A stretch of 64,000 nt of DNA from Actinomycetes bacterium (GTDB lineage: Bacteria > Actinomycetota > Acidimicrobiia > Acidimicrobiales > Acidimicrobiaceae). Position 1 is the first letter of the stretch; every line of letters begins with the position of its first letter. The stretch lies in contig JAKAZZ010000002.1 in NCBI GenBank assembly GCA_021826315.1, positions 1 through 64,000 on the forward strand, in the 5' to 3' direction. The position numbers and the translations under genes were made by a program. This document shows, one piece after another, positions 13,224-17,632 of the stretch. Below the pieces are notes generated by a model. That model was not told where the DNA came from and did not search any database. It worked only from the letters and a program-made list of their open reading frames with translations.

Positions 13224-14426
13224 TTACGGCTTTGTAAATACCAAGGAGCCGTTGTGGCCACCGAATCCGAACGAGTTCGAGATGATCGCTCCTGTGCCGA
13301 GTTTGCGAGGCTCCCCGATTACTACATCGATGTTCATCTCTGGATCGATGTTGACGGTATTTGCTGTAGGAGGAATGATGCCGGTTTCAAAGGTTAGACA
13401 CGCGGCAACGGCTTCGATTGCGCCAGCAGCTCCGAGGGAGTGGCCAAGCGCGCCCTTGATTGAAGTAACGGGTGGTCGAGTGGCGCCGAAGAGCTTATCG
13501 ATTGCTTCCGCTTCGCCTTTGTCGTTTAATGGCGTCGACGTGCCGTGGGCATTTACGTGAGCTATGTCGTTAGGAGATAGTCCGGCATCTTCAAGAGCTG
13601 CCTCCATGCAAGCAATAGCTCCTGCTCCGTGCGGTGCTGGTGCAGTGATGTGATGCGCGTCTGCATTGGAGCCGTAGCCGGCCACGATTGCGTAGATGTG
13701 AGCACCTCGGGCGAGTGCATGGCCAAGCTCTTCTAGAACAACAACCGCTGCCCCTTCAGCCATAACAAAGCCATTACGTTCGGCATCGAACGGGCGAGAA
13801 GTAGCCGTCGGTGAAGCCGCGGTCATGTTATCGAAGCCAGCGATAGCCGTTGGCGTCGTCGCAACCTCAGCACCACCTGCGAGCATGATGGTCGCTCGTC
13901 CAGACGAGATCTCACGTGCAGCGTTACCAATCGCTTGAGTTCCAGCAGCGCATGCCGTGGCGGTCGTTTGGCACGTGTTCGTAAAGCCAAACTTCATCGA
14001 AATGGTGGCTGCATTGGAGTTCGCCATCATCATTGGCACTAAGAAAGGCGACACGCGGTCTGGACCGCGGCCGTGGCAGATCAATATCTGTGCCTCAAGT
14101 GTGGTGAGGCCACCAACGCCAGTGCCCATCCATACACCAGCCTTCGCTGGATTTACCTCTGGATTGCCGGCGTCTTCCATGGCCAGCATGGAAGCGGCTA
14201 ATCCAAGTTGGTTGTAGCGATCTGCTCGTCGAGCTTCTTTGACGTTCATGAACTGGGACGGATCAAAGTCGTCGATGAGGCGGGATCCGCTGTAAGTGGA
14301 CTTAAGAATCCCACTCCAAAAAGCATCTTTTCCTATACCAACCGACGAGAGGACGCCAACGCCAGTAATTGCAACCTGAAATGGTGATTCAATTGCTTCA
14401 CCATCAGCGGACCAACCTAATTTCAT
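13224..14426 (-). CDS. fabF: 3-oxoacyl-[ACP] synthase II
   Basis: Elongating condensing enzyme of type II fatty-acid synthesis. It has 400 residues, a complete Cys-His-His triad in ATACAAGTQ (Cys159), VNAHGTSTP and LGHSLGAAGA, and the C-terminal glycine-rich SNSFGFGGHN. It is last in the fab operon. The ATG overlaps the acpP stop as ATGA, so synthase and carrier protein are translationally coupled. A strong terminator follows. Confidence 0.96.
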   Translation of the reverse strand: MKLGWSADGEAIESPFQVAITGVGVLSSVGIGKDAFWSGILKSTYSGSRLIDDFDPSQFMNVKEARRADRYNQLGLAASMLAMEDAGNPEVNPAKAGVWMGTGVGGLTTLEAQILICHGRGPDRVSPFLVPMMMANSNAATISMKFGFTNTCQTTATACAAGTQAIGNAAREISSGRATIMLAGGAEVATTPTAIAGFDNMTAASPTATSRPFDAERNGFVMAEGAAVVVLEELGHALARGAHIYAIVAGYGSNADAHHITAPAPHGAGAIACMEAALEDAGLSPNDIAHVNAHGTSTPLNDKGEAEAIDKLFGATRPPVTSIKGALGHSLGAAGAIEAVAACLTFETGIIPPTANTVNIDPEMNIDVVIGEPRKLGTGAIISNSFGFGGHNGSLVFTKP

Positions 14427-14665
14427 GCAACCTTGCCCTTTACAAGGTCGAAGGCTGCACCAACGGTGTCGACGCCTTCGAGTTCTGATTCATCTACTTT
14501 GATAGAAAAGGAGTCTTCGAGCTCCATAACGAGCTCCACGATGTCGAGGCTGTCGGCGTCTAGGTCGTCAGCAAAGTTTGCCTCAAGAACGACCTTGTCG
14601 CCGTCTACGCCTAGAACCTTTACGGCACATGCCTTAAACTGATCAAACAACGCTGCGTCGTCCAT
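14423..14665 (-). CDS. acpP: Acyl carrier protein
   Basis: Carries the growing acyl chain on a phosphopantetheine arm attached to Ser39 in DADSLDIVELVMELE. I choose ATG 14665 because AAAAGGA lies 6 bases upstream; this gives 80 residues, the normal length, and removes 10 residues from the ORF-track version. The preceding 108-base gap to fabG is A+T-rich and could hold a separate promoter, as is common for this highly expressed protein. Confidence 0.95.
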   Translation of the reverse strand: MDDAALFDQFKACAVKVLGVDGDKVVLEANFADDLDADSLDIVELVMELEDSFSIKVDESELEGVDTVGAAFDLVKGKVA

Positions 14666-14773
14666 TTGTATCCTTTTCTCGTAACTAATGGCCAATCGCT
14701 TGGCCTAACTCATACGCAATTAAAAATATTCAATTACGTAACCGGGTAAATGCTAGTCGAATTTCATTGCCGA

Positions 14774-15505
14774 CTAGAACCCCATAGAGAGGCCACCATC
14801 GACCGGAATTAGGGTTCCTGTTATGTAATTTGCCCTATCTGACGATAGGAAGTCGACAATTCCAGAAATATCAGATGGTTGAGCCATTCTTCGCATAGGA
14901 ATTGCCCCCACCATCTCCTCCATACGCTTTTCGGTGAGGCCTTCTGTCATGGCCGTTGCGACTGCCCCTGGAGCGATCACGTTTGCTGTTATGTTTCGTG
15001 TGGCGACTTCACGGGCCACGGATCTTGCAAAGCCAATAAGTCCCGCTTTTGATGCGGCATAGTTGGCCTGACCTGGAGCACCCATGCCAGCAATTACCGA
15101 AGACATATAGATTATTCGACCCCAGCGACCACGTACCATCTGTGGTAACACGCGCTTAGTAAGGAGGAAGGCGCCCTTTAAATTCGTGTCGATAACTTTG
15201 TCGAATTGCTCTTCGTCCATTCGAAGAAGGAGCGTGTCAGCGGTCATGCCAGCGTTTACAACCAGTATCTCGATTGGACCAAACTTTTCTTCAACCACTT
15301 TTATGGCTGCATCGATTGACTCTGAGCTAGCAACATCGCAGGAGACTTCAAGGAGTTGATCTCCCCACTTTTGTGAAATCTCCGGATCGATGCGCCGCGA
15401 TCGAAAAGTTACTGCAACCTTGTGGCCCGCCTCGAGGAGATCAAGCGTGCACGCTTGACCAATCCCCGTGGAACCACCGGTAATGAATGCGACCCTTGAC
15501 GTCAT
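14774..15505 (-). CDS. fabG: 3-oxoacyl-[ACP] reductase
   Basis: NADPH-dependent reduction of 3-oxoacyl-ACP. It has 243 residues, with TGGSTGIG, NAG at 84-86, the catalytic Ser136, Tyr149 and Lys153 (YAASK), and the FabG-type NAGMTADTLLLRM. Its ATG follows the fabH stop directly (TAA then ATG). Position and motifs make this the housekeeping reductase rather than the SDR at 1.4 kb. Confidence 0.95.
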   Translation of the reverse strand: MTSRVAFITGGSTGIGQACTLDLLEAGHKVAVTFRSRRIDPEISQKWGDQLLEVSCDVASSESIDAAIKVVEEKFGPIEILVVNAGMTADTLLLRMDEEQFDKVIDTNLKGAFLLTKRVLPQMVRGRWGRIIYMSSVIAGMGAPGQANYAASKAGLIGFARSVAREVATRNITANVIAPGAVATAMTEGLTEKRMEEMVGAIPMRRMAQPSDISGIVDFLSSDRANYITGTLIPVDGGLSMGF

Positions 15506-16441
15506 TTACTGCGATACCCACTTTATGACCGCCGCAGACCATGTCATTCCTGCACCGAAGCCACAGAAGAGTACGTAGTCTCCGTCCTTTAGCCTTCCGT
15601 CGTCGGCGGCACCGCCGAGTGCTAGAGGAATTGATCCCGAAGATGTATTTCCCGTCTTGTGCAAGACGATTGCCGCCTTTTCGATGGGTATTTCGAGGCG
15701 TTTAAGCGCAGCTTCGATAATCCTAAGGTTTGCTTGATGGGGAACTACTAACGATATCTGATCTGCGGTTACCCCGGAGCGTTCCATTGCGTTCTTCGCC
15801 GATGAAACCATAGAGAGGACTGCCTTTTTGAATACTTCGCGCCCCTCCATTTTGAGGTAGTCGCCGTGGTCGCAGTAGAGAATTGGAACGAGCGAGCCGT
15901 CGAGTCCTAGATCCCACCCGAAGAAGGCATTCTCATCTGCAGATGTTTGCTCCATCACAATCGCGCCGGCGCCATCTGCGAACAATACCGCGGTGGAACG
16001 ATCCTCTTGGTCGGTGATCTTGCTTAGAGTGTCGGATCCTATAACGAGGATTCTCTTAAGGCCGGTTGTAATCATCGAGTTGGCTACGACCATGGCATAT
16101 ACGAAGCCTGCGCAAGCAGCGTTGATGTCGAATCCACCGCACCTCAGCCCCAATTCTGCTTGAACGACGGAAGCCGTCGCTGGAACAGTCTGATCAGGGG
16201 TGGTAGTGGAGAGGATGAGGAGGTCAATATCTTCTGGCGAAAGACCAGCGCTCTTTATCGCATTGCGACCTGCTTCGACTGCCAGTGATGAAGTTGTACC
16301 GCCGAAACGCCTCTCCTTGATGCCGGTACGCTCGGTGATCCAGGCATCGTTTGTATCAAGCCGGGCCTCAAAGTCAGCGTTCGTAACAATCTTCTCGGGT
16401 AGAGCAGTACCCCATCCCGTAATCTTTGAACCGTAGGTCAC
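15506..16441 (-). CDS. fabH: 3-oxoacyl-[ACP] synthase III
   Basis: Starts fatty-acid chains by condensing an acyl-CoA with malonyl-ACP. It has 311 residues. The triad is Cys110 in INAACAGFVYA, His in VVPHQANLRI and Asn in KTGNTSSGSIP. The GTG start abuts the fabD stop (TAA then GTG). Acyl-CoA preference (acetyl or branched) cannot be read with confidence. Confidence 0.95.
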   Translation of the reverse strand: MTYGSKITGWGTALPEKIVTNADFEARLDTNDAWITERTGIKERRFGGTTSSLAVEAGRNAIKSAGLSPEDIDLLILSTTTPDQTVPATASVVQAELGLRCGGFDINAACAGFVYAMVVANSMITTGLKRILVIGSDTLSKITDQEDRSTAVLFADGAGAIVMEQTSADENAFFGWDLGLDGSLVPILYCDHGDYLKMEGREVFKKAVLSMVSSAKNAMERSGVTADQISLVVPHQANLRIIEAALKRLEIPIEKAAIVLHKTGNTSSGSIPLALGGAADDGRLKDGDYVLFCGFGAGMTWSAAVIKWVSQ

Positions 16442-17632
16442 TTAGCCTTCCAATTTCGTTCGCAACCATGCAACTGGTTGTCCTATAATTACTCTTTCTC
16501 CATCAGCTGCGAGATAACCGCTGACATGACCTTCAAATGCGGATCGCACCTGTTCGCCTGAAACTTCACCGAGGGCATCTCCGACTCTCACTTTGTCTTT
16601 GAGATGTACATTTGACGACGAAGTAAAGACACCTGCCGCGGGTGAAACAACGATGCGTTCGAAGGCATAAAGGTGTTCCCCGCCGCGAATTTCTGAAGGT
16701 ATGTGTATGGTCGCACTCTCTTCGACCGCCATGATCAGCTTGTCCAGGTCGTCTGGAGTTTGAATAGAGATAGCCCGAATGTCCGGTGTCGTACGCTTTG
16801 CGAGACCTGTTAATACGTTCCCAGGTCCGATCTCTACTAACAGAGAGGTACCTTGGTCACGGAGACGATTTAGCGACCGGGTCCACATTACGGGTGAGGT
16901 AAGTTGTTGGGCTAGTAGGCGGATCCAATCGGCTGCACGTCGATAAGGAAACGCGTCGACGTTTGCTATAACCGGAATTTCCGCGTCATAGAAGCGAGAC
17001 TCGAGTATCGCACGACGAAGTCGTTGCCGCGCGTTCTCCATGTACGGCGTATGGAATGCGCCATTTACGGGGAGAATCATCGCCCTCTTTGCCCCTAAGT
17101 TCTTCGCAATTTCAATTGCCTTTCCGAGAGCATCTTTCGCTCCGGATAGTACGACTTGACCAGGCGCGTTGTAGTTTGCAACCCACACATCGCCGCCAGC
17201 TTCGTCGCAAGCCTTTTCAGCTCCGTCGTCGTCGATGCCAAGGAGAGCTGCCATTCCGCCTGGGTTTTGTTGTGCTGCAATTTGCATTGCTTCAGCTCGC
17301 TCAGCTACCAACTTTGCGCCGGTATCAAATGGAAGTGATCCCGCTGCGACGAGGGCACAGTATTCGCCGAGTGAGTGACCCGCGCAAATCGATGGCGAGA
17401 CGCCGATACGTTCTACTGCATCGAGAACCAGCATTGACATGGCGTACGTAACTAGCTGTGTATTTCTAGTTTGCGATAGCATCTCTTGGTCGGCAGACGT
17501 AAGCAGTTCAGCTATGTTTCGCCCAGTAGCTTCGGAGGCCTCTTCAATAACCTCCCAACTGGGATGATCGAGCCATGGCAGCCCCATTCCTGCCTTTTGC
17601 GAACCCTGTCCTGGGAAGGTGAAAGCAATCAA
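16442..17632 (-). CDS. fabD: Malonyl-CoA:ACP transacylase with extra C-terminal biotinyl/lipoyl-like domain
   Basis: Transfers malonyl from CoA to ACP. The transacylase domain spans about residues 1-305, with FPGQGSQ, the nucleophile Ser87 in GHSLGE, and His194 in GAFHTPY. Most FabD proteins end near 310 residues, but this one has 396. Residues 321-396 look like a barrel-sandwich fold: VVSPAAGVF, DKVRVGDALGEV, FEGHVSGYLAADGERVIIGQPVAWL. The attachment lysine of true carriers (MKM or DKA) is absent, so it is probably a non-modified binding or scaffold domain. First gene of the fab operon. The stop touches the fabH start, so the extension is not a frameshift artefact of the next gene. Confidence 0.93.
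   Translation of the reverse strand: MIAFTFPGQGSQKAGMGLPWLDHPSWEVIEEASEATGRNIAELLTSADQEMLSQTRNTQLVTYAMSMLVLDAVERIGVSPSICAGHSLGEYCALVAAGSLPFDTGAKLVAERAEAMQIAAQQNPGGMAALLGIDDDGAEKACDEAGGDVWVANYNAPGQVVLSGAKDALGKAIEIAKNLGAKRAMILPVNGAFHTPYMENARQRLRRAILESRFYDAEIPVIANVDAFPYRRAADWIRLLAQQLTSPVMWTRSLNRLRDQGTSLLVEIGPGNVLTGLAKRTTPDIRAISIQTPDDLDKLIMAVEESATIHIPSEIRGGEHLYAFERIVVSPAAGVFTSSSNVHLKDKVRVGDALGEVSGEQVRSAFEGHVSGYLAADGERVIIGQPVAWLRTKLEG

Follow-up and report, generated by a model that had tools for sequence, protein, structure and literature searches.

The FabD protein encoded in the window (the whole stretch of 64,000 nucleotides that was analysed, from an actinobacterium related to acidophiles) continues past its transacylase core into a C-terminal domain that, judged by profile matches and its predicted structure, is a biotinyl fold without the biotin site. 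This extension, termed pseudo-BCCP here, probably serves FabD as an accessory docking module with no catalytic role. The gene is followed on the same strand by fabH, fabG, acpP and fabF. The features of the locus are:

16442..17632, minus strand, fabD with C-terminal extension (396 amino acids, TTG start)
16718..17632, minus strand, malonyl-CoA:ACP transacylase core, residues 1–305 (TIGR00128, invariant columns, Foldseek)
16664..16708, minus strand, predicted disordered linker, residues 309–323 (pLDDT <50)
16445..16681, minus strand, pseudo-BCCP domain, residues 318–396 (conserved motif, model, Foldseek)
16547..16564, minus strand, VSGEQV hairpin, residues 357–362, where BCCP has its AMKM biotinylation hairpin (four residues fewer, no lysine)
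15506..16441, minus strand, fabH, beginning immediately past the fabD stop
14774..15505, minus strand, fabG
14423..14695, minus strand, acpP (acyl carrier protein)
13224..14426, minus strand, fabF

The transacylase core and the extended reading frame

Ordinary FabDs have their C-terminus near residue 310. The window protein contains the whole catalytic core of this family; TIGR00128, whose curated cut-off is 260.9 bits, matches residues 1–284 with 281.7 bits, and Q9, S87 (within GHSLGE), R112, H194 and Q243, all catalytic, occupy invariant columns across 48 relatives. A Foldseek search with the full-length protein matched solved FabDs, including E. coli 1mla, and the top of the list holds FabD and acyltransferase matches only, the solved FabD chains being ~ 290–326 residues long. 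At 396 amino acids, the window protein is longer than ordinary FabDs. The first-pass annotation had described an extension past the FabD core that carries two half-motifs. The reading frame and the end of the TIGR00128 match bear this out, as the frame stays open for about 90 residues beyond the core and both half-motifs are present in it. An assembly, frameshift or read-through artefact was rejected as the source of the extension, which is present and open in all relatives of the genus and family that yielded a FabD, even at an overall identity as low as 49%.

Fold and homology of the C-terminal domain

AlphaFold2 modelling with 48 full-length relatives gave a mean pLDDT of 90.5 for the window FabD, with six strands between residues 325 and 391. 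The domain modelled alone is a confidently predicted barrel-sandwich with a pLDDT of 93. Predicted disorder, named at the outset as evidence that would speak against a folded module, is confined to the linker at residues 309–323. The pTM of the full-length model is 0.77, a value that would be expected of a well-folded core combined with a freely placed second domain, and a flexible linker would suit a tethered docking module. An alternative, in which the extension stabilizes or oligomerizes FabD and has no further partner, is unlikely. Its fusion to FabD or co-translation with it fits such a role, as does its retention on a catalytically dead FabD described below, but the flexible 15-residue low-confidence linker, the pTM if read as above and the many FabDs that lack the domain all speak against it.

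BCCPs are the top Foldseek matches of the domain in the PDB, with TM scores of 0.70–0.84. P. horikoshii BCCP ranks first (TM 0.75/0.82), E. coli BCCP comes after it, and Arabidopsis BCCP1 appears lower in the list. In profile searches the domain matched BCCP 2d5d with an E value of 1.6e-5, or 5.2e-8 with more rows in the profile, and the E values against BCCPs span 5e-8 to 5e-4. The domain shares with BCCP (AccB; E. coli 1bdo, P. horikoshii 2d5d/2evb; PF00364) the barrel-sandwich fold and its quasi-repeated halves. It differs in the absence of the AMKM lysine hairpin, in scores that fall short of the TIGR00531 and NF005457 curated thresholds, and in being coded between fabD and fabH or as a FabD fusion. 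At the position of the thumb of ACC-type BCCP, the alignment places a loop of variable length. The conserved pattern of the domain is GEhL..ERxVVsP..GvF ... V.vG..lG.v ... VRSpF.G.L.g.lA..GERV..GQPiAWLR.

Matches to curated families are weaker. Biotin_lipoyl is the sole Pfam match to the last 92 residues of the window FabD alone, with an E value of 0.013; PF00364 scores the window sequence at 16.3 bits, below the gathering cut-off of 22.1 bits, which four separate-gene relatives pass (23.4–27.1 bits). The biotinyl/lipoyl-like character proposed in the first-pass annotation is upheld by profile and fold, although the window sequence alone stays under the Pfam cut-off. TIGR00531 (AccB/BCCP) gave weak matches in 7 of 65 members (best E value 8e-4), short of its curated score, and at an E value of 0.001 it matched none of the nine relatives scanned, with E. 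coli AccB as a control scoring 241 bits. Leaving aside one HlyD_3 match, whose score lies above the cut-off without a significant stretch, none of the curated families reached its own cut-off for the domain except PF00364 in some of the separate members, and no curated family describes the module. YqeB (TIGR03309), RnfC/NqrA and HlyD also contain barrel-sandwich domains without the modified lysine, with weak profile similarity to the window domain. Those domains belong to unrelated proteins, and the YqeB match to the window FabD (E value 4e-7) reaches 29.7 bits, far under the cut-off of 220.

The missing biotin attachment site

Alignment with E. coli AccB shows two kinds of change at the AMKM hairpin. 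The fused forms have a shorter hairpin, with four residues missing, whereas in the separate forms a hairpin of full length has other residues instead of the motif. Hairpin lysines occur in 11 of the 65 members, at differing positions, and none is conserved; neither is any other single residue of the hairpin. The modifiable lysine, already reported missing from the window protein, is thus absent there and has no conserved equivalent across the 65 members. A working carrier domain for biotin, lipoyl or another covalent group, with a displaced attachment site, could be argued from the biotinyl fold and the sporadic lysines. This reading is highly improbable and was rejected, because the attachment residue is not conserved and the hairpin of the fused forms is truncated.

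In the genome from which the window derives, the carboxylases have biotinyl domains of the ordinary EAMKM kind, as parts of long chains, and therefore no carrier function is missing. The extension was accordingly ruled out as a substitute for an absent BCCP.

Distribution and gene organization

A profile scan of contigs yielded 71 loci with domain matches. The records are titled Acidimicrobiia, Acidimicrobiales, Acidimicrobiaceae or, more broadly, Actinomycetes, Actinobacteria or Actinomycetota, and the loci include Acidithrix ferrooxidans, Ferrithrix thermotolerans and Aquihabitans. A single Bacteroidales match is an ordinary BCCP with EAMKM, and this one pattern-limited scan returned no pseudo-BCCP outside Actinomycetota. 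The strong matches examined in Acidimicrobiia adjoin fabD and/or fabH, either fused or separate. Departures from the fabD–fabH placement are L031/L125, L091, L106, L121 and loci at contig ends. All 20 of the 20 loci examined in other classes in a search of the phylum lie between fabD and fabH. Over the rest of Acidimicrobiia, as well as in two or more additional classes of the phylum, the usual form of the domain is a gene of its own, of ~ 96 codons, placed between fabD and fabH. Matches were found in 17 of 18 good genomes of one class (that of G155) and in 11 of 27 genomes of another (that of G389), both values being lower bounds as only so many candidates from each genome were scored in the search.

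In genomes without a match, which include families of the same class as the window, fabD is followed directly by fabH or by fabG. Some of these absences may be diverged copies; one genome counted as lacking the domain has a weak 16-bit match between fabD and fabH (L176:1193-1393), and another has a gap of ~ 230 bases at that position (L174). Several further arrangements were observed. Family f19 (L173, L179, L184), of the same order as the window, has a fabD-fabG-acpP-fabF cluster with neither fabH nor pseudo-BCCP. At L091 and L106 the fused FabD is followed directly by fabG, and fabH was not found in the cluster. At L125:5947-6258, in the genome that also contains L031 and L032, a separate pseudo-BCCP gene stands first in a fabH operon from which fabD is absent; the only FabD found in this genome is on another contig, beside two ketosynthase-like genes.

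The gene order bears on the choice of partner. One possibility, to which we give limited weight, is that the domain docks FabH or ACP, bridging FabD to either, so that malonyl-ACP would be passed straight to the initiating condensation. The placement of the gene exactly between fabD and fabH is in its favour, as are the persistence of the extension with fabH where fabD has moved (L125) and the joint absence of the extension and an adjacent fabH in family f19. The clusters L091 and L106 argue against it, as does the lack of a FabH-specific co-evolution signal reported below.

Fused and separate forms

A set of 142 non-redundant FabD loci, picked for having or lacking the domain so that the counts are not prevalences, comprises 76 fused forms, 48 separate forms and 18 loci without the domain. 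On a FabH tree, a quick one with long branches, the fused state requires two or more changes, and the second of these falls in another class, in family f57 (L160, L189, L190); the domain has been fused to FabD at least twice independently. Separate genes begin a median of −4 nt from the fabD stop, and 41 of 55 overlap or abut it (≤ 0), although the start codon taken was the one closest to that stop, a choice biased towards short gaps. The median gap from the extension gene to fabH is 2 nt. Repeated fusion together with tight coupling of the separate genes constitutes the classic genetic signs of physical partnership. Because the domain is repeatedly fused to one enzyme and tightly coupled to it when separate, we infer from gene fusion and synteny that it physically partners FabD and has a docking role. 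Mirror-tree comparison gave no specific co-evolution of the extension with FabD (partial r of −0.09 for separate and 0.22 for fused forms) and no FabH-specific signal, and singled out no partner.

A FabD paralogue offers a further view of this relationship. The genome containing L109 and L121 has a separate pseudo-BCCP gene in its fab operon and, besides it, a second FabD with an intact, fused pseudo-BCCP domain (L121:4984-6240). In the paralogue GHSLGE has become GQGAAA, the active-site His has become Asn and the Gln has become Glu. There is no fabH at L121, and the neighbouring genes look like those of an acyl-CoA dehydrogenase, a phosphopantetheinyl transferase and a P450. The retention of the domain on a dead FabD suggests that partnership rather than catalysis is what counts for it.

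Conservation and selection

In a set of 41 relatives, the extension is present on each FabD that the genus and family yielded, and the domain is conserved in all of the genus, all of the family and most of the order. The clade-wide conservation expected of a genuine domain is thus observed, and absence from close relatives, which would have weakened the proposal, is not. Residues G17, G34, S47, F49, G51, R63, P69, A71, W72 and L73 (domain numbering) are invariant in a 33-member alignment. Between genus pairs in which dS is not saturated, dN/dS of the domain is 0.04–0.22, compared with 0.01–0.03 for the core in genus pairs. The domain evolves more slowly than neutral and faster than the enzyme core, and is under purifying selection. 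Descent from a BCCP-like domain is likely and would be in keeping with a non-functional relic of a BCCP gene remaining in the fab operon, but that reading is scarcely credible. It is contradicted by dN/dS and by conservation of the motif over several classes, and the repeated fusion and the near-universal presence in the class of G155 also count against it.

Proposed role of the pseudo-BCCP

In the proposed mechanism, a biotinyl fold devoid of the biotin-attachment hairpin would act as a non-catalytic docking module of FabD. In many of the lineages that have it, it would be a small separate protein translated along with FabD; a flexible linker would join it to FabD in Acidimicrobiales and, through independent fusion, in other lineages. 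It would most likely hold FabD beside a partner in malonyl supply or initiation, either acetyl-CoA carboxylase (ACC) or FabH with ACP, and would itself carry no cofactor. The predicted fold, the missing site, conservation, selection, synteny, repeated fusion and the disordered linker favour docking. Against it stand the absence of a mirror-tree signal, the L031/L125 extension without an adjoining fabD and the same-class families without the domain. The binding or tethering role suggested in the first-pass annotation is thus supported indirectly, by at least two fusions, coupling, the flexible linker and the dead FabD; ACP, ACC or another Fab protein would be candidate partners.

By analogy, the closest counterpart of the pseudo-BCCP is BADC of plants, which is homologous to BCCP, has no biotinylation motif and acts on plastid ACC (PMC11926652). 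Both are BCCP-like, lack the motif and are linked to fatty-acid synthesis, whereas BADC is a separate subunit of the plastid heteromeric ACC and the pseudo-BCCP is tied to a bacterial FabD. A comparable control or assembly factor, which would bind ACC and either bring FabD to the source of malonyl-CoA or tune ACC, is conceivable but rather doubtful. The lesion is the same as in BADC, the product of ACC is the substrate of FabD, and the fold matches both E. coli and Arabidopsis BCCP. Nonetheless, no free BCCP was found in the window's own genome (~ 90% complete), where the biotinyl domains belong to long chains and the carboxyltransferases are single chains with frames of ~ 460–590 amino acids, so that there may be no BC-BCCP slot of the kind that BADC occupies. 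A search of the fetched fab loci found no gene for an ACC alpha-chain. Because of the missing free BCCP and the single-chain carboxyltransferases, the BADC mechanism cannot simply be assumed.

A literature search for FabD-BCCP fusions or bacterial BCCP-like proteins without biotin found nothing relevant, and the module seems to be an accessory component of fatty-acid synthesis in bacteria that has so far gone undescribed. More tentatively, it could belong to the type II pathway of several Actinomycetota classes as a conserved subunit, one that physically couples ACC or FabH to FabD for malonyl channelling and has been repeatedly hard-wired by fusion.

Type II fatty-acid synthesis is commonly pictured as enzymes diffusing freely, with ACP as the shuttle. 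If the docking reading is true, the genetics of a conserved, carrier-like subunit that has no catalytic role and belongs with FabD would point to an organised supply of malonyl groups, and bacteria would have in it a counterpart in kind to BADC of plants; its separate and fused forms would be ready material with which to test binding.
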